From Antedon mediterranea (Eukaryota > Echinodermata > Crinoidea > Comatulida > Antedonidae): a stretch of 64,000 nucleotides of DNA. Below the pieces are notes generated by a model. That model ran no database searches, was not told where the DNA came from, and saw only the letters and a program-made list of their open reading frames with translations. The stretch spans positions 9,561,312 to 9,625,311 of the forward strand of contig NC_092675.1 of assembly GCF_964355755.1 (NCBI RefSeq), read 5' to 3'. The translations under genes and the position numbers were made by a program. Position 1 is the stretch's first letter, and every line of letters begins with the position of its first letter. Shown here piece by piece: positions 34,572-57,488 of this stretch.

Positions 34572-34679
34572 CTAAGCTTTGAGAGTTGGCATAGCATCAC
34601 TCACATTCTGGTTAAGTCTACGGTAACTTCCACCTCGCTTTCCATTCTTTCCTCTTCCCTCAATTATAACTGCAATTAT
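34572..34679 (-). CDS. TGOLN2: TGN38/46-like gene, exon 5: cytosolic tail with YxxPhi signal
   Basis: This 35-codon terminal exon is easily missed because of its size. After a TTTTTACAG acceptor it reads IIAVIIEGRGKNGKRGGSYR, then RLNQ and a short tail ending TLKA and TAG. Alignment with the vertebrate tail (IIAF...LEG...YQRL) is direct: the tyrosine signal is YRRL here, with the same spacing from the membrane within a few residues. The tail extends 13 residues past the signal. Confidence 0.88.
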   Translation of the reverse strand: MIAVIIEGRGKNGKRGGSYRRLNQNVSDAMPTLKA

Positions 34680-37600
34680 CTGTAAAAAGTTTAGAAATCA
34701 GTAAGGATTACCTACAACAAACAAATTATGAGATCAATTAAAATATATATGTAGCAGGTCACTCACTTTCTTGGAATCCATGTGGTTGACCATACTTAAC
34801 TAATGGAGACTATAGACCTGGCCTGTAACCACTCAAGCTTGGTTCTCACTAGAACGTAACGCAAGGACGTAAACGCAACGCAAGCGTTTTAACCAATGAC
34901 AAGCGAAGTTATAGACAGTTAGCAATCACAAGCGAATAAGCCATCGCTTGTGATTGGTCAATTCACTTGCGTTGCGTTACGTCCTTGCGTTGCGTCACAA
35001 GTGCCTTATTTTATGGAATTGGTATCAAATAATTACTTGGGTGTGACCTTAATGGATATACCAGCTCTTGGGAGGGGACAAGGAGGGTCACCTTCCTGGA
35101 TTATTCCTTAAATGGAGATACACAATCGCGATCACAATCTGGAAATAACTTGGACTAATAGCTACAACTTAATAATTCTCTGTGTACCTGTATATAGTGT
35201 AAAGTAAAGTACCCTTGAGAAATTAACAAGAGTCTGTGTCAGATATAAAGAGTGCTAAATATATGATTGAACCGAATTTGAATAAAAAAATCAGGGGCAG
35301 ATGCAGAATGTTTTACATGGAGGAGCGCTAACATAATATTTATAGTAAAAAATAAATATCAAGAAGTAAGTAGAAATATCAATGACGGTTTAGCTGTCAC
35401 AGGGGACAGAGCACGACCCAAGCACTACACCACTGGATAATACTTTTTAAATCAAACTGTACTTTTATTCAGGTATAAAAATGAAATATGTATAATAAAT
35501 AATAACAATACTAATAACATTGTAAGTTGCCATAAAATTGGAAAAGCTGATCTTTCGTTGCTATATTGAGGAGTGCAATTAAATAATATAGTTTGTACAT
35601 TTAAGTTGTGTGTAATGTTGAATACAGTAGAATAACATCTCTTGCTCCCTCTCAAACCTTTTGTATCTCTTGCACTTGAAATCCCTTCTGTTTTGAGGTA
35701 CGAGAAATAAACTTACTTTTCGCTTGTTGTGATACGCAATGTATGTTGCTAGAATCAGAATTATAGCCGTCAAGGAATATGCTAAGAAATGACTAGATGA
35801 TTCTTCTTCTTCAAACTTTCGGTTTTTAAAACTATCATAAGTTTTCTGATTTTCCTTCAGGTAGTAGTCATCTTTTCCAAAATCACCACCAATATTGGGT
35901 TTGTATTTCTGAACATTTTTTTCATTATCCTGAAAGTGTAAATAAAACTTATAATACACTACAATAGAAGGTAAATAGAGAGAATTTAAAAAAAAAAACT
36001 TTTGAAAATAAATTCCTCCCCTGGCGAGATTCAACAACACTAAGAGAGAACATTCTATTTTTGGATCTATCCTGGAAAATCTTTTATAAATGTATTTATT
36101 TGTAATGTCAGTAATTTATTTTATCACTTTATATATGTTTTTTATGACGATTTTCCTAATAAATTCAAATCAAATAACATTTACAATTTTAAAAAAACAG
36201 TATAGTATTAAAATTCTAGCATTTTACTATCTGAAACTGTACATTTTAATTACTAAATTCTTTTTAAGCTTTGTGAAAGCACAATTATTTTAATCTATAT
36301 ATTGTTTTACCTATCAATTAAATTTAAAGTATTTAACCACAACTTTTAACTGAAAACCACATTTTCTGTAAGGTTTGCACTTGGGTAGTAAAGTTTTAAT
36401 ATTCATAAATCACGTACCTCAAATGATGAGTCAGGTGCAGGAACACTGTCATAATCATCTTCAGATGAATTGTCTTTACTTTGATCTTCCTCGTCCTCTT
36501 TGTTTCCACCACCAATGTCCGATTTGTTATTTTCATCTTCATTGTTTTCACTTGCTCCATCACTAACGTTTGGTTCCTTCCCTTCATCTTCATTGTTTTC
36601 ACTTGTTTCACCACCAACGTTTTGTTTCTTCAATTCATCTTCATTGTTTTCACTTGTTTTACCATCAACGTTTGGTTTCTTCCTTTCATCTTCATTGTTT
36701 TCACTTGTTTCACCATCAACGTTTGGTTTCTTCCATTCATCTTCATTGTTTTCACTCGTTTCACCATCAACGTTTGGTTTCTTCCCTTCATCTTCATTGT
36801 TTTCACTCGTTTCACCATCAACGTTTGGTTTCTTCCTTTCATCTTCATTGTTTTCACTTGTTTCACCATCAATGTTTGGTTCCTTCCCTTCATCTTCATT
36901 GTTTTCACTTGATTCACCACCGTTTGGTTTCTTCCCTTTATCTTCATTGTTTTCACTTGTTTCACCATCAACGTTTGGTTTCTTCCTTTCATCTTCATCG
37001 CTTTCACTTGTTTTACCACCATCGTTTGGTTCCTTCCCTTCATCTTCTTTGTTTTCACCACCAACATTTGTTTCTTCCTTCTCATCTTCATTGTTTTCAC
37101 CACCAGCGTTTGGTTCCTTCGCTTCATTGTTTTCACTTGTTTTATTCCCAACGGTTGGTTCCTTCCCTTCATCTTCTTTGTTTTCACTTGTTTCACCACC
37201 AACTTGTTTTGGTTCATCTCCATTATTCAAGGTTGTTTCTCCACTCACTTCTTTGCTGTTTGGTGTAATAGGCTTGTCACTTTCTTTTAAAAAACAATAA
37301 AAAAAAAAATGTTTATTAATTTAAGCAAATAAAAATGGTTCCTGTTAACTAAAAAAGGCCTCAGATAATTCTGCGAGATGATAATATTGCAGTAACTCAC
37401 AAATTGCTCAAGCTTATGGAAGTCCAAATATTATGTTAGGAGGTAGTCAATTTGCAGTAATACTATTACTATATATTTGTTTGAAGGAGGAGTTTATTCA
37501 AAGCGGGGCATTTATTCGAATAAATGCGGTAACCATAATAATCAGATTCTCTGAAAGTACTACCTCCTACATTACACATTATATTAATAGAAACTTAAGC

Positions 37601-40600
37601 TTGGTTCCCACTAGAGACGCAACGCAAGGATGTAGACAAAATGTAAATGAGTTGACCAATCACAGGCGATAGATTATTCAAACTGTCGCTTGTCATTGGT
37701 CAACACACTTGTTGCGTTTACATCCTTGCGTTGCATCCTAGTAATTGGAATCAAGCTTTAGTGGTAAAATACTGTACTACTGCACACAACAACAGCAATC
37801 TTATTTTCTAATACAGTATAGTATTTCATTGGACTACTGTATCTTTTTTTTAATTACCAGGCCTTAAATTTACAATTGTGTACTGTACCTTTCATATAGA
37901 AATTTAAATACCAAAGCATGTAACAAACTCGACGTAGAGAAGGATGATTAGGATTACATACATCGCAACTTGGCATGGCATCAGGAATTTTTAGGAATGC
38001 ATGCGGACAAAGGTATTCCTCTCTTTCGCCAGGGGTCATATCAATGCTGATCCATCCAAGAGAAATATTTTCATATTTCTTGTTAACACAATACTCATGC
38101 AAAACATTAATAGCAGATGTGCAGACTTTAGACTCATCAACATTTTTAGGGTGTTTACATGCAACAGTGAATGGACTGGGATGTTGTGGATCAACATCTT
38201 GATAAAAGCTAAGCATTGCTTTATTTGAACAAAGAGCAGAAGTTGCCAATACAGATATATCAAATGTATTTTCGGGTGGACTTTTCTCACCAAAAGTACT
38301 ACCAGTATTTGTTGTAGAAGTGCCAACTTTATTTGGCAGGTCTGGATCAGGATGTTCGTTTTCTTTTAAAAGAGGAGGTTCATCATTGTTATTACTGTCA
38401 TGTCGATTTTGATCAACCTTTTCATTCTCTGCTTTGTCTGTAGGAAACTTGGTTGCTGCTAAAGAAATAAACAATTATTATTTATCAATTGGGATGGTAA
38501 TGACAAATTCTGCAGTGTAAAATTAAATTGTAAAAATATACTGTATTATTACAGATTTATTCCTACTATACACTTAATATTGGTTATCACTACCATTAAT
38601 GATAAAATAAACTGTAAGCTTTATCTATTCTTAAAAACCTTTATTAAAGTTCCTTTTAGAGTGTTGAGAAAGCGTAAGGCAGCGAGCCAGATATTTGTGC
38701 TAAGCACCATTTAATCATTTCCAAACATGCGAGGCATGCAGTTTACAAATTCAATAATGTGCATACTGTATCTTAACGTTCTACTATGCTATCATATTAT
38801 ATTAATAAATTATTTATATTTTTGTAACAGTATTCGGCATCCTATAGCACGTGATTTCAGCATGCACAGACTTCTCTCTGAGTGGCGTGCCAAAGACATT
38901 TTTGACATTCCATTCTCTAGAAAATCAACATGTGTACCTCTCTCGCCAAAAAAGTGAACAGCAATGGCCGGGAAAAGATCAATAACTGGCGGTGAATAAA
39001 AGTTAACTGATCAAATAACATGCCGCAAAGAATAAAATTGCCAGATAAATCTGGAGCGCATGTGAAAAAGACATGACCCGATCATCCGACAATCGTCATA
39101 CCCTAAAATTTAACTTTATAGCTAATAATATGTTCAGCCCTAACCTAGAGACCTATGTTGAAAATAATGTTGATATAATAATTGGTGTAGTAATCATACA
39201 ATATTCCTGTATTTAACGAACGATTTCTATTTTTGTCCATACAAACTACTAAGCCTGGCGCTACAGTAGTACTAGTAGTTTCATTCGCCTGATAACTAAC
39301 TTTATCGTCGTGTGTGAATACCATCCACACCACATAAGAATGTTGTAATGATGAATTAAAGAAGAATCACATAAAAAGTAAAAGTTTAATTAATGATTTT
39401 GCAGTAGGCCTAGGCTAGCCTAGATACAAATACAAAAAAAAATGTTAACTCGCAAAACTGTGTGTGTAAAAAATGTAACTAGGGGCCTGTTACTGCTGCA
39501 ACTGCTCAAAATACGGTATAAAAATATGGTATTTTTATACCGTATTTTTTAGTACCCCGTTTCTGCTAACAAAACTTCTTGGGTGGTCTTGTTAAATTTC
39601 CTCCTTTTTACCCAAATTGCCATTCATTCATTTGGTCGATAATTAAAAGTCGCAATGAAGGAAGTTTTACGTCTCACTTTCAACAGCCTTGCCCTAGTGA
39701 TAGAGATGTTGTGAGAGCACAGAAAACAATGTAATGGGGACAAGTAATTCGTTCCCTCCCCGAGTTATTGTCTTTTGCAATGTTGTACTGCTTTCGCAGG
39801 CTCTTCAGCTTTAAGTTTACTTGCTTTGGAGACAAGTCTCTTCCATACTCCAGCTTTATTTTTTTAGAAATGTCTTTATAATGTGGTTGTCCCTTATTCC
39901 TTTTAGTTGGCCGGACATTTTAGCTTCCCCACACAGAATTATATAGTAAATACTGTGACGTCTTCGCTCCACGTTTTCGCCGAATATCTATACACGTGTG
40001 TAAAACAGCTGAGAGCGACAGAAAATAAAACACGATGTTGACCTCACGTCGCAGGTAAAAAAAATACGGTATTTTTTATTGGCAGCAGAAAAGGGTACAA
40101 AAAATACGGTATAAATTTGTAAATACCGTATTTTATCCACAAATTTTGTGGGAAAAATACGGTATACAAAATATGTTATTTTTTTTATGAGCGCAGTTTC
40201 TGCTGCCAAAAAAATACGGTATATATATACGGTACTCCAAAAAATACCGTATAAAATACGGTATTTTCTTGGCAGCAGAAACAGAGCCTACTACAGTATA
40301 CTAACTACCTGATGTTGTACGGGTTGTTTCTTCAGCTTCTTTTATTTGCCATAGCAATAAACAAGCTACACGAAGTGGTGTGCTAGGTTCACATATCTGC
40401 TCATCAAGAGACCCGATGTCAGTGATCATTTTAACAGCCTCACGAATTCTATCTTCATTTTCACTTGCCATGGATTTATCTAAACGCGTGTGTAATACCG
40501 CAAATACATTATAATCCAAGATAGTTTTGGCTTTAGCATTATTACATATTTTACTTAGTTTGTCAAGTATCGCTTTGCACACAGTCGTTTGTTGGTCACT

Positions 40601-40825
40601 GTCAGGTGTAGCACAGGCCAAAAACAAGCTAGGACTACTTGGTTCTAGTTTGTCTTCCTCGAACAGCTTTTGTACGCGGTCGTCGTCAGCAGTTGCTGAA
40701 CACTCGAGCGAATTTGTAATGTTGGTCTTGTACTTCTCGTATGTCTGTGTATATTCATTTACAGGAGCCCCATTTACAATAAATAGTAATAATAAATGCA
40801 ATGCTGCAATGATATATACATTCAT
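34572..40825 (-). CDS. TGOLN2: TGN38/46-like trans-Golgi network integral membrane protein (5 exons, 757 aa)
   Basis: Join on the minus strand: 40825-40309, 38458-37889, 37283-36418, 35929-35717, 34679-34572 (2,274 nt). All introns are GT-AG and the phases 1, 1, 0, 0 close perfectly. Residue layout: signal peptide 1-19; six-Cys domain 1 (about 42-155); Asp/Pro/Asn-rich linker; six-Cys domain 2 (about 249-351); acidic repeat tract (about 363-650, unit near GETSENNEDEGKKPNVD); transmembrane helix 698-717; cytosolic tail 718-757 with YRRL at 741-744. The helix-tail block YIAYHNKRK followed by IIAVIIEG is the hallmark of vertebrate TGN38/46, which cycles between trans-Golgi network and plasma membrane using a YxxPhi signal read by AP complexes. 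The Met at 40825 is preferred because it opens directly onto a hydrophobic signal; an upstream in-frame Met lies at 40849. Three MITEs lie in the introns. A possible AATAAA (minus) lies at 34320-34315. The family call is firm; the function of the cysteine domains is unknown. Confidence 0.88.
34837..35006. mobile_element. GCTTGGTTC MITE copy in TGN intron 4
   Basis: The inner 120 bp are almost identical to 43589-43770 (GCGTTTTAACCAATGACAAG through ATTCACTTGCGTTGCGTTAC). The right end is diverged and lacks the ...GGGAACC terminus, so its boundary is approximate. Confidence 0.7.
35717..35929 (-). CDS. TGOLN2: TGN38/46-like gene, exon 4: juxtamembrane stalk and transmembrane helix
   Basis: The acceptor is ACTTTCAG and the donor AAA|GTAAGT; both junctions are phase 0 and the exon is exactly 71 codons. 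A charged stalk leads to EEESSSHFLAYSLTAIILIL and then ATYIAYHNKRK. The serine-histidine-aromatic entry, the helix and the exit AYHNKRK are near identical to vertebrate TGN46. The basic NKRK is the cytosolic stop-transfer signal, giving type I topology. Confidence 0.9.
36418..37283 (-). CDS. TGOLN2: TGN38/46-like gene, exon 3: acidic 17-aa repeat tract
   Basis: This 866-nt exon encodes about 288 residues dominated by Glu, Asn, Asp, Lys and Gly. Near the middle the repeat is a clean 51-bp unit (GETSENNEDEGKKPNVD and variants); both edges are degenerate. It opens ESDKPITPNSKEVSGE and closes DYDSVPAPDSSFE before a GTACGT donor. Long acidic repeats in the same position are typical of mammalian TGN38/46, although the repeat sequence is unrelated. 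The tract is predicted to be disordered and lumenal. The 51-bp unit should make copy number polymorphic. Confidence 0.85.
37599..37756. mobile_element. GCTTGGTTC MITE copy in TGN intron 2
   Basis: Left TTAA at 37595-37598 and GCTTGGTTCCCACTAG start; the right end is ...GGAATCAAGC followed by TTTA. It is palindromic with a diverged centre (ACCAATCACAGGCGATAG). Confidence 0.7.
37889..38458 (-). CDS. TGOLN2: TGN38/46-like gene, exon 2: linker and six-Cys domain 2
   Basis: The acceptor is TTTCTTTAG and the donor G|GTACAG. The exon is 570 nt, a multiple of three, and lies between two phase-1 introns, so it is a symmetric module. Residues 173-240 form a polar linker rich in Asp, Asn and Pro. Cysteines follow at 249, 273, 285, 296, 323, 337, 340 and 351. 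Six of these align with the exon 1 domain: the C2-C3 spacing (12) and C3-C4 spacing (11) are identical. Cys323 and Cys337 are extra and could form an additional disulfide. Confidence 0.85.
39482..40288. mobile_element. 0.8-kb MITE in TGN intron 1 rich in AATACCGTATTT
   Basis: Terminal inverted repeats GGGCCTGTTACTGCTGC and (reverse complement) GGCTCTGTTTCTGCTGC differ at three positions. CTA lies just outside or at both ends (39479-39481, 40288-40290), so the duplication is TA or CTA. Subterminal zones at 39508-39555 and 40050-40275 consist of ATACGGTAT/ATACCGTAT palindromic words; the middle is unique with no coding frame. Confidence 0.65.
40309..40825 (-). CDS. TGOLN2: TGN38/46-like gene, exon 1: signal peptide and six-Cys domain 1
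   Basis: The exon begins MNVYIIAALHLLLLFIVNG, a clear secretory signal, with cleavage likely near residue 19-20. It carries cysteines at 42, 71, 83, 94, 145 and 155, in contexts LEC, LAC, TVC, KIC, QIC and VAC. It ends TTRTTS plus one base (phase 1) at a GTAGTT donor. The domain ends in an RVACLLLWQIKE-type helix that recurs in exon 2 as RRVCYMLWYLNF. One NxT sequon (NIT) precedes the first cysteine. I recognise no named domain. Confidence 0.85.
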
Positions 40826-45870: not shown

Positions 45871-49106
<3,236 letters not shown>

Positions 49107-49342
49107 TGATTTTGCTTTTATTGTAAGCTCTCAAAAATATAGCAGATAATCTGAAAAGAAATATATAAATGATAAAGTTTTGGTCATGAAAGATTAGAAA
49201 AAGGTTTTGCCAAACGCCGAGGAAACTCTCATCAAAATGAATGTTTATCATTGAATGAGGAGATGTACTGATATCAACCATACATCATTGATTTTCTTTA
49301 TTATAAACAGCAGATAATCTGAAAAGAAATACAGTATATATA

Positions 49343-49577: not shown

Positions 49578-49621
49578 GAAACGATAAAGATGAGGAAATC
49601 TGTGAGAATGAGGAAAAATTC

Positions 49622-49692
49622 GCCCCAACCGAGACTCGAACTCGGACCGCCTGCTTGATATGCAGATGTCCTAACCATTAGACCACTGGGGC
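49622..49692 (-). tRNA. tRNA-like cloverleaf, anticodon AUC (copy 1; probably SINE-derived)
   Basis: On the minus strand the 71-nt sequence folds fully: acceptor GCCCCAG with TTGGGGC (one G.T), D stem GTC/GAC, anticodon stem TCTGC/GCAGG, loop ATATCAA, 4-nt variable region, T arm CCGAG-TTCGAGT-CTCGG, discriminator G. A-box TGGTCTAATGG and B-box AGTTCGAGTCT are good. Anticodon AUC would read GAU (Asp), but animal tRNA-Asp uses GUC. An identical copy 364 bp away inside a shared ~200-bp repeat points to a tRNA-derived SINE or tRNA pseudogene. Confidence 0.6.
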
Positions 49693-49985
49693 TTTCATGG
49701 TATTGTTCGAACTCGATTGGATAGCGACTCTTTAACATTCTCGGCGTGGTACGGCGGAACAGCACTAGTCCTCAGTTGTACGCACGCGCACCAGAGATCA
49801 AATTGATACGCCCTCATCTTACAGTATTTTTATTCACGAGGCGGGATCTCAGAAGAGATACTTTTATATATATAAACAAATCAGGCACAGAACATTAATT
49901 CTAAACCGCCCGGTGATATACTGAAATTTAATTAATTAATTTGAAACGATAAAGATGAGGAAATCTGTGAGAATGAGAAAAAGTC

Positions 49986-50056
49986 GCCCCAACCGAGACT
50001 CGAACTCGGACCGCCTGCTTGATATGCAGATGTCCTAACCATTAGACCACTGGGGC
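49986..50056 (-). tRNA. tRNA-like cloverleaf, anticodon AUC (copy 2; probably SINE-derived)
   Basis: Identical over 71 nt to 49622-49692. Both copies lie within a ~200-bp repeat (49573-49774 and 49938-50138) that extends about 80 bp upstream (CTGTTCCGCCGTACCACG...) and about 50 bp downstream of the tRNA-like part and abuts TA microsatellite. Confidence 0.6.
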
Positions 50057-52129: not shown

Positions 52130-52990
52130 TCACCCCCTGGACATTTACCCCCCGTAAAACTACCCCCCGGATAACCACAACCTGGACCACTACCCCCTTA
52201 GGACAACTACCCCTTTAGGACAACTACCCGCCGGACAAATACCCCCCGGACAACTACGCCCTTAGGACAACAACTCCCTTAGGACAACTACCCTTAGGAC
52301 AACTACCCCCTGGACAACTACCCCCCGGACAATTACCCCTAGGAACAATTACCCCCCCGGACAATAACCCCCCGGACAATAACCCGCCGGGACAATTACC
52401 TCCCCCCCCCCGGGTAATTACCCCGCGGACAACTACCTCTGACACACTACTCCCCGTAGGACAACTACTTCCTGGACAATACTCCGAGGGAAAATAATCT
52501 TTTAGGACAACTAACCCCCGGACAACTACCCCCGGACAATTACCCAAGGAACAATTACCCCCCGGACAATAACTCCCGGACAATTCCCCCCCCCCCCCCC
52601 CCGGGTAATTACCCCGCGGACAACTACCTCTGACACAATACTCCCCGTAGGACAACTACTTCCTGGACAATACTCCGCTTTTAAGACAACTAACCCCTGG
52701 ACAACTACCCCCGGACAATTACCCAAGGAACAATTACCCCCTGACAATTACCCCCGGAGAACTACCCCCTCCCCCCCCCCCGCGTAATTACCCCGCGGAC
52801 AACTACCTCTGACACAATACTCCCCGTAGGACAACTACCTCCTGGACCTGGACAATACTCCGAGGGCAAATAATCTTTTAGGACAACTACCTCCGTAGGA
52901 CAACTAACCTCTGGACAACTACCACCCAGAAAACTATCCCTTTAGAACAACTACCCCCCGGACGGACAACTACCACCCCGGACCATTCAA
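52130..52990 (+). repeat. GGACAACTACCCC array with ~220-bp higher-order repeats
   Basis: Dozens of 12-14-bp words (GGACAAYTACCCCC). Blocks beginning ATTACCCCGCGGACAACTAC recur at about 52415, 52605 and 52785. Poly-C runs interrupt it (52400, 52586, 52770). The inverted counterpart lies at 53940-54170. Pro/Gly-rich open frames across it are artefacts of the repeat. Confidence 0.85.
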
Positions 52991-54211: not shown

Positions 54212-57200
54212 GAGGTATATTCAGAGCGTCATTTCGACGATCGAGCATTCTCTACTTTTACGGAGCGCCATTTATGCCTTTATTTACTTCCGAAATAGAA
54301 ATAGTACTGCGGTAGCTGCTTCAGTGGACCAAATTTAGCACCGGTGGAGCACAGTGATATAAAATAGAAAAAAGTCACTAATATCTTTTCGTATGTTAAT
54401 ACACTGTGCTCAAGTGGACCCAATTTGGAGCCAGTGGAGCACAGTGATATAAAATAGAATTAATTCACTGAATTTTAATATCTTTTCGTATGTTAATACC
54501 GGGGTTAATACACTGTGCTCAAGTGGATCCAATTTGGAGCCAGGGGAGCACAGTGATATAAAATAGAAATAAGTCACTGAATGTTAAATCTTTTCGTATG
54601 TTAATACACTGTGCTCAAGTGGACCCAATTTGGAGCCAGTGGAGCACAGTGATATAAAATAGAAAAAAGTCACTGAATTTTAATATATTTTCGTATGTTA
54701 ATACACTGTGCTCAAGTGGACCCAATTTGGAGCCAGTGGAGCAGAGTGATATAAAATAGAAAAAAGTCACTGAATTTTAATATATTTTCGTATGTTAATA
54801 CACTGTGCTCAAGTGGACCCAATTTGGAGCCAGTGGAGCACAGTGATATAAAATAGAAATAAGTCACTGAATGTTAATATCTTTTCGTATGTTAATACAC
54901 TGTGCTCAAGTGGACCTAATTTGGCGCCAGTGGAGCACAGTGATATAAAATAGAAATAAGTCACTAAATTTTAATATCTCTTCGTATATTAATACACTGT
55001 GCTCACGTGGACCCAATTGGCGCGCGCGCCAGTGACCACAGTGATATAAAATAGAAAAAAGTCACTAAATTATAATATATTTTCGTATTTTAATACACTG
55101 TGCTCAAGTGGACCCAATTTGGCACCAATGAGAGCACAGGGAAATAGTCACATACAAAAACATCGAGAAAAAATACTTCTGGATTTCAAAAATATTTCAA
55201 ACTTATTATATAAATTCAATATCGGTTACTCCATCCGTAAACCAAAAGAAAAATTAGTTTCAGGCCATATCAGTGATTTTAGTAATTTTCGTTCGTTTAA
55301 AATGTATATTTATGATAGAACATAGAATTCCAACACATTTTTTAAACTTTACATTTTGATCGTCATCAATTGTCCTACACATTTGAAATTTGGTAATATA
55401 TGTTCAATAGGTTACTACACGTTCAATATGTTACTACATAATTCATATTTCTAACATATGTCTTTTTTTTTATCGCTAAAGTTTAAAAAAATGTGTTGGA
55501 ATTTTATGTTCTTTCATAAGTATTTATTATAGGCAAACGCAATTAGTTATTAAAATCACTGATGTGGCTTGAAACTATTTTTTCTTTTGGTTTACGGATG
55601 GAGTAACCGATATTGAACTTATATAGGCCTACCAAGTTTGAAATATTTTTGAATTCGATAAATATTTTTTCTAGAAGTTTTTGTATGTGACTATTTCCCT
55701 GTGCTCCCATTGGTGCCAAATTGGGTCCACTTGACTTTTTTTTAATTTTATATCACTATGCTCACTGGCGCGCGCGCCATATTGGGTACGTCCACGTAAG
55801 CACAGTGTATTAACATACGAAAAAGATATTAAAATTCAGTGACTTATTTCTATTTTATATCACTGTGCTCCCCTGGCTCCAAATCGGGTCCACTTGAGCA
55901 CAGTGTATTAAATACGAAAAGATATTAAAATTCAGTGACTTTTTCACGCTGCTGCTCTAGCCCGCTACGTCCCATTAGGACTACTCAATCAGAAGCTAAA
56001 GCAAGCAGCAGTTATAGTTCTAAGGACAGACAGTTTTGTGAAAATGGAAACTCCACTATAATTTATTGATTCCAGCTGCTACAGTAGACCCAAAAAACGT
56101 CTGGGAAAGAGTCTATTAGGACATGTCATGCTAAAATTACAAATCCCTAAGCATTTCTGGTGGTATATTCACTGTCAGATATTCATTGAATTACAGGAGT
56201 ATTATCGAAACAGGCCATTAAAGTTTGTGTTTGTAATAGGATACTTCACAATTGAAATATCTAGGGTGATGAAGTGACCCCCAGATAATAAAATTAACTA
56301 AAGTGACAGAAATTGAGTATTCACTTCTGTAACAAAAAAATAATATTTATTCACATATAAAAAAAGAAAAGAAACCCAAAAACCATTGTCTGACAGACAA
56401 TTTAAGTATTTGTTTCTTTAAATTACATTTTTTTTCAGGTAAAATAACTATTATGTGACAATAAAATGACACATTCAAAAACATTTGAAATAAAAAATAT
56501 TTTTCAATAAGCGAGCAGCGTTTTTTGTAAGAAATATTTCTTGTCCATTTTATATCACTGTGCTCCACTGGTGCCAAATTAAGTCCACTTGAGCACAGTG
56601 TATTAACATACGAAAATATATTAACATCAATGACTTATTTCTATTTTATATCACTGTGCTCTCCTGGCGCCAAATTTGGTCCACTTGAGCACAGTGTATT
56701 AACATACGAAAAGATATTAAAATTTAGTGACTTATTTCTATTTTATATCACTGTGCTCCACTGGCTCCAATTGGGTCCACTTGAGCACAGTGTATTAACA
56801 TACGAAAAGATATTAAAATTCAGTGACTTATTTCTATTTTATATCACTGTGCTCCCCTGGCTCCAAATTGGGTCCACTTGAGCACAGTGTACGTAATAAC
56901 TTACGAAAAGATATTAAAATTCAGTGACTTATTTCTATTTTATATCACTGTGCTCCCCTGGCTCCCAATTGGGTCCACTTGAGCACAGTGTATTAGCATA
57001 CGAAAATATATTAATATTCAGTGACTTATTTCTATTTTATATCACTGTGCTCTCCTGGCGCCAAATTGGGTCAACTTGAGCACAGTGTATTAACATACGA
57101 AAAGATATTAAAATTCAGTGACTTATTTCTATTTTATATCACTACTGTGCTCCACTGGCTCCAAATTGGGTTCACTTGAGCACAGTGTTGGCCTATTAAC

Positions 57201-57488
57201 ATACCAAAAGATATTAAAATTCAGGGGCTTATTTCTATTTTATATCACTGTGCTCCTCACTGGCGCCAAATTGTGTCCACTTGAGCACAGTGTATTAACA
57301 TACAAAAAGATATTAAAATTAGTGACTTTTTTCTATTTTATATCACTGTGCTCCACCGGTGCTAAATTTGGTCCACTGGAGCAGCTACCGTAGTACTATT
57401 TCTATTTCGGAAGTAAATAAATGCATAAATGGCGCTCCGTAGAAGTAGAGAATACTCGATCGTCGAAATGACGTTCTGAATATACCTC
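54212..57488. mobile_element. 3.3-kb inverted-repeat element D built of ~105-bp tandem units
   Basis: The outer ends GAGGTATATTCAGA(G/A)CGTC mirror each other. Inside, both arms are arrays of a ~105-bp unit containing TAATACACTGTGCTCAAGTG, GGACCCAATTTGG and GTGATATAAAATAG: about 8 copies on the left (54345-55130) and about 11 inverted on the right (55700-57390). A unique inner segment pairs 55135-55352 with 55478-55715 around a ~125-bp loop. The right arm carries a 599-bp insertion (55946-56544). Confidence 0.85.
55946..56544 (-). mobile_element. 0.6-kb repeat element, copy 2, inserted in element D
   Basis: Reverse complement of 41219-41799. It interrupts a 105-bp unit between GACTTTTTC and CCATTTTATATCAC. 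Its ends are ACGCTGCTGCTCTAGCCCGC and ...GAAATATTTCTTGT, and ACGCTGCT occurs near both ends in inverted orientation, like a short terminal inverted repeat. Confidence 0.75.

Follow-up and report, generated by a model that had tools for sequence, protein, structure and literature searches.

The TGN46-like gene of Antedon mediterranea described here raises the question of whether a protein of this kind may carry a discrete, duplicated cysteine-rich domain in its lumenal part, and what such a domain would do there. Proteins of the TGN38/46-KCT2 family are type I membrane proteins that cycle between the trans-Golgi network (TGN) and the cell surface. Vertebrates have two paralogues of the family, and TGN46 is a standard Golgi marker. 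The function of TGN46 is still given as unknown in a 2023 review (PMC9988951), and a 2024 paper argues that this function is lumenal cargo sorting (PMC10928510). According to the 2024 paper, human TGN46 sorts cargo into CARTS carriers through its lumenal domain, which disorder prediction marks as essentially intrinsically disordered (PMC10928510). An earlier, sequence-only reading of the locus had held that vertebrate TGN46 lumenal regions are repeat-rich and lack a six-cysteine domain like the one seen here, in agreement with this prediction. Our preferred reading, to which we assign a probability of roughly 0.55, is that the locus encodes a single-copy TGN38/46-KCT2 protein with two homologous, disulfide-rich and probably all-helical lumenal domains, which probably bind cargo or ligand.

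The window, a 64,000-nucleotide stretch of contig NC_092675.1, contains five minus-strand exons that join in frame to encode 757 residues. The introns are of the GT–AG type, with phases 1, 1, 0 and 0. The exons are as follows:

40309–40825, minus strand: exon 1, with the start codon, a hydrophobic signal-peptide-like N terminus and domain 1 (D1)
37889–38458, minus strand: exon 2, a cysteine-free linker and domain 2 (D2), symmetric in phase (1-1)
36418–37283, minus strand: exon 3, a 289-residue acidic, cysteine-free repeat stalk
35717–35929, minus strand: exon 4, the membrane-proximal region and transmembrane helix, with HNKRK at its end
34572–34679, minus strand: exon 5, the cytosolic tail IIAVIIEGRGKNGKRGGSYRRLNQNVSDAMPTLKA and the stop codon, absent from the sequence-only reading

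The predicted order along the protein is a signal-peptide-like start, D1, a linker, D2, an acidic repeat exon, a transmembrane exon and a tail. The signal peptide was called by eye from the hydrophobic N terminus; besides this, one hydrophobic stretch was found by eye as the lone candidate transmembrane helix. The placement of exons 1 and 2 on the minus strand at 40825–40309 and 38458–37889, as first proposed, was reproduced. Their open reading frames, of 202 and 206 codons, respectively, are long for the local base composition; an open reading frame of at least 200 codons occurred in one of 30 Markov-simulated windows. The exon 1 donor (CAG/GTAGTT, phase 1) is of moderate strength by eye, and the exon 2 acceptor is a tandem TAG/CAG. 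Six lumenal N-glycosylation sequons are present in the 757-residue model. Taken together as a prediction, exons 1–5 very probably form a single gene.

The assignment to the TGN38/46-KCT2 family was supported by the Pfam model KCT2 (PF17818), which matched the transmembrane segment and tail (E = 7e-13; bit score 49.6, cut-off 26.2) over model positions 97–180 of 187. Exon 4 alone scored 31 bits against the same model, also above the cut-off. The protein had been proposed to be of the TGN38/46 kind, and this match bears the proposal out. In the 354.4-Mb, 18-contig genome, PF17818 gave two matches, of which only the TGN46-like locus was above the cut-off; the other, on contig C2, fell below it and is full of stops. 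The family features present are the PF17818 segment, a repeat-rich, low-complexity lumenal region and a Yxx-phi tail motif; a short cytosolic tail bearing a Yxx-phi motif for internalisation is characteristic of the family. From these comparisons, the gene appears to be the only TGN38/46-KCT2 gene of the genome and, with one gene here against two paralogues in vertebrates, may be the pro-orthologue of both.

Chromosomal linkage was also considered. The neighbours of vertebrate KCT2 include TCF/LEF and VDAC genes: in human, TCF7 and VDAC1 are near C5orf15, and TCF7L1 is near TGOLN2. These two markers were picked from the vertebrate linkage before searching, and both (2/2) were found on contig C6, which carries the TGN46-like gene at 9.60 Mb and makes up 8.9% of the assembly (31.7 of 354.4 Mb). 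The TCF/LEF gene (PF08347; best PDB match TCF7L2, E = 3.9e-8) is at 21.18 Mb, 11.6 Mb from the gene, and the VDAC gene (PF01459; best PDB match VDAC2, E = 3.6e-27, with VDAC1 also matched) is at 15.74 Mb, 6.1 Mb away. The other porin locus, on contig C8, is TOM40-like. This linkage is on the scale of the chromosome (6–12 Mb) and not local synteny, and as such is supportive of the family identity.

The stalk, membrane segment and tail contain the following features:

36532–37203, minus strand: tandem array of a 51-bp (17-residue) unit in 13.7 copies, within exon 3
35732–35791, minus strand: transmembrane segment of about 20 residues, by reading
34614–34625, minus strand: YRRL, a Yxx-phi sorting motif within the tail SYRRLNQN, by reading

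In exon 3, 96 of the 289 residues are D or E, and the exon had no match in Pfam. As in TGN38/TGN46 (TGOLN2), a repeat-rich acidic lumenal stalk is followed by one transmembrane helix, here a putative one, and by a short basic tail that contains a Yxx-phi motif. This motif is YRRL in the Antedon protein and YQRL in rat and human TGN38/TGN46. The membrane and tail segment is likewise of the PF17818 type, which we take to cover TGOLN2. The repeat unit of 17 residues differs from that of human TGN46, which has 14, and, unlike TGN38/TGN46, the Antedon protein has two cysteine-rich domains at its lumenal end. The likeness to KCT2 (C5orf15) lies in the transmembrane and tail match to PF17818, whereas positions 1–96 of that model were unmatched by exon 1, exon 2 or exon 3, and KCT2 is not known to have a cysteine-rich domain. 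A donor-like AAT/GTGAGT is found at 34599–34607 (minus strand) inside exon 5, just after YRRLNQN, and would permit alternative tails. Alternative tails are found in human TGN46/48/51.

The two lumenal domains were delimited as follows:

40328–40714, minus strand: D1, with six cysteines, at residues 42, 71, 83, 94, 145 and 155
37890–38258, minus strand: D2, with eight cysteines, at residues 249, 273, 285, 296, 323, 337, 340 and 351

All 14 cysteines of the 757-residue model are inside D1 (6) and D2 (8), and the even number in each is consistent with complete disulfide pairing. The spacings in D1, 29/12/11/51/10, are exactly those first given. In D2 they are 24/12/11/27/14/3/11, and the six-cysteine pattern 24/12/11/44/11 proposed for this domain is obtained only when Cys 323 and Cys 337 are skipped. 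Due to these two extra cysteines, the disulfide pattern would not be wholly common to D1 and D2. In a MAFFT alignment of the two domains, five cysteines share columns, while the first (249 in D2) is matched by order only. The PSxF..AC and RVAC/RVC..LW contexts are present in both domains. The VCxxAI motif, also described as shared, is found in D2 (VCTSAI), but D1 reads VCKAIL, offset by one residue.

The claim that the two exons each encode a domain with six cysteines in common order, related by descent, was confirmed by BLASTP and by shuffling. BLASTP aligned D1 and D2 over 110 columns with 28% identity (E = 3e-9), and the identity was 27–28% across alignments. The local BLOSUM62 score was 88, compared to a mean of 26.7 (SD 4.4) for shuffled D2 sequences, and none of 2000 shuffles reached 88; nor did any of 2000 reach the D1/D2 score when the cysteine positions of D2 were held fixed. 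When the cysteines were masked, the signal was weaker, with 11 of 2000 shuffles reaching the score. The cysteines carry much, but not all, of the similarity. At the DNA level, blastn found no same-strand similarity between exon 1 and exon 2 at E up to 1. Over 119 aligned codons, identity at the three codon positions was 0.41, 0.57 and 0.34, with 0.29 expected at the third position from base composition. The excess at positions 1 and 2 over position 3, together with the decay of DNA similarity, is the pattern of an old duplication under protein-level constraint. By these sequence comparisons, D1 and D2 are homologous and constitute a duplicated domain.

A profile search of both domains had been suggested at the outset, and no described family was matched: hmmscan against Pfam at E up to 10 returned no more than two hits, DUF1294 (E = 0.087) and zf_RING-like (E = 0.16), which fell far short of the cut-off. 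A sequence search of the PDB gave no significant match (best E = 0.022 and 1.1, in implausible families). Both searches used single-sequence queries. Within the genome, which was searched exon by exon with only the best candidates scored, the D1 search at E up to 0.001 recovered D1 alone, and the D2 search, relaxed to E up to 10, recovered nothing beyond the two domains themselves. Among the matches listed from open-licence PMC full text, no paper dealt by title or abstract with a cysteine-rich domain in TGN38/46 homologues. As far as these collections show, a protein with D1 and D2 appears to be new for the TGN38/46-KCT2 family. AlphaFold, run with a two-row alignment, gave an all-helical model of D1 (pLDDT 61.9, pTM 0.61), in which 59 of 129 residues had a pLDDT of 70–90 and 46 were below 50. 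The corresponding D2 result (pLDDT 41.4, pTM 0.37) was not usable as a model; its helices, predicted with low confidence, are at places corresponding to those in D1. Fold searches with the middling-confidence D1 model (pLDDT 62) yielded no meaningful structural match. The folded ectodomain previously ascribed to the protein is weakly supported by these models (pTM 0.61 for D1 and 0.37 for D2). Because of their cysteine content and the duplication, D1 and D2 are nevertheless likely to be folded.

A mobile element was observed within intron 1, at 39483–40290, with its boundaries read by eye. Its ends are similar in inverted orientation (GGGGCCTGTTACTGCTGC and AGGCTCTGTTTCTGCTGC), and it has CCGTATTTT-rich inverted repeats. 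An open reading frame at 39680–39919 matched a Myb/SANT-like domain (PF13837, E = 2.3e-9), the sole Pfam match among those intron 1 frames that were scanned, which are part of the total. At least 39 other copies of the core, 92–94% identical, are present in the genome. The element ends about 18 bp from the exon 1 donor, and our guess is that it is Harbinger-like.

Some features of this intron would fit a different arrangement, in which exon 1 constitutes an intronless gene of its own, encoding a small secreted cysteine-rich protein, and the TGN46-like gene keeps one domain and has another first exon. Eight bases beyond its donor, the exon 1 reading frame runs into a stop, which would in principle let exon 1 stand alone; intron 1 contains six AATAAA/ATTAAA motifs, and the transposon adjoins the exon 1 donor. 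However, the open frame of exon 2 has neither an upstream methionine nor a signal-peptide-like segment; exon 1 provides the two, and its donor is in phase with exon 2. The homology of the encoded domains is what an intragenic duplication would be expected to produce, and the Myb/SANT-like frame between them is explained by the transposon. We therefore consider two separate genes very improbable and retain the five-exon gene.

It is possible, if somewhat doubtful, that D1 and D2 are highly diverged copies of a described cysteine-rich lumenal fold beyond the reach of profile searches. HMMER misses distant relatives, the queries for Pfam and the PDB were single sequences, and models at pLDDT 62 and 41 leave room for a known fold; on the other hand, what those searches did return was confined to the sub-threshold DUF1294 and zf_RING-like hits and the implausible PDB families noted above. 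The main functional rival is that the doubled domain is structural, serving as a spacer, dimeriser or protease shield and binding no cargo. In its favour, the lumenal domain with which human TGN46 sorts cargo is, by prediction, essentially disordered (PMC10928510). A duplication that keeps the cysteines and core motifs at 27–28% identity suits a binding module, but is still compatible with a structural one; we regard the structural role as unlikely. By analogy with the human protein, the likeliest role of the doubled head is to bind cargo or ligand from the end of a flexible stalk.

According to this preferred cargo- or ligand-binding reading, D1 and D2 would sit in tandem at the lumenal end, atop a long, acidic and probably disordered repeat stalk, where the two heads may capture secretory cargo or a ligand, either inside the TGN lumen or at the cell surface. 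Clathrin adaptors would read the YRRL tail, leading to retrieval of the protein to the TGN. In human, the counterpart of the head's job would fall to a lumenal region that is predicted to be disordered. Exon 2 presumably arose when a domain unit of the exon 1 type was duplicated; its symmetric phase (1-1) is what one would expect of a unit whose duplication or insertion leaves the reading frame intact. This duplication would have occurred long ago, since no DNA similarity is left. We find it decidedly unlikely that the tandem disulfide-stabilised helical module represents a new domain family and the ancestral folded, cargo-binding ectodomain of TGN46-like proteins, which vertebrates would have lost, leaving the disordered stalk to sort alone.

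Elsewhere in the window, gene pieces at 47420–49130 (minus strand) contain folate-receptor-like (PF03024) and glucose/sorbosone dehydrogenase (PF07995) domains, a layout that we take to be that of HHIP-like proteins. Two tRNA-Asp-like matches, which share the unusual anticodon ATC and have the same Rfam score, are found at 49621–49692 and 49985–50056; the frames beside them look like tRNA-derived SINEs, although this is a guess. Repetitive stretches at 52219–52787 and 56347–57393, with frames reading PPDNYPPG-like and GPLEHSVLTYEKILKF-like repeats, are, also as a guess, probably non-coding.

A TGN46 relative with a discrete, duplicated cysteine-rich head would offer a defined domain with which to find cargo. 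It would also show an ectodomain changing radically between lineages while the membrane segment and tail stay recognisable, and hints that a protein with a floppy ectodomain in people may elsewhere have folded binding parts.
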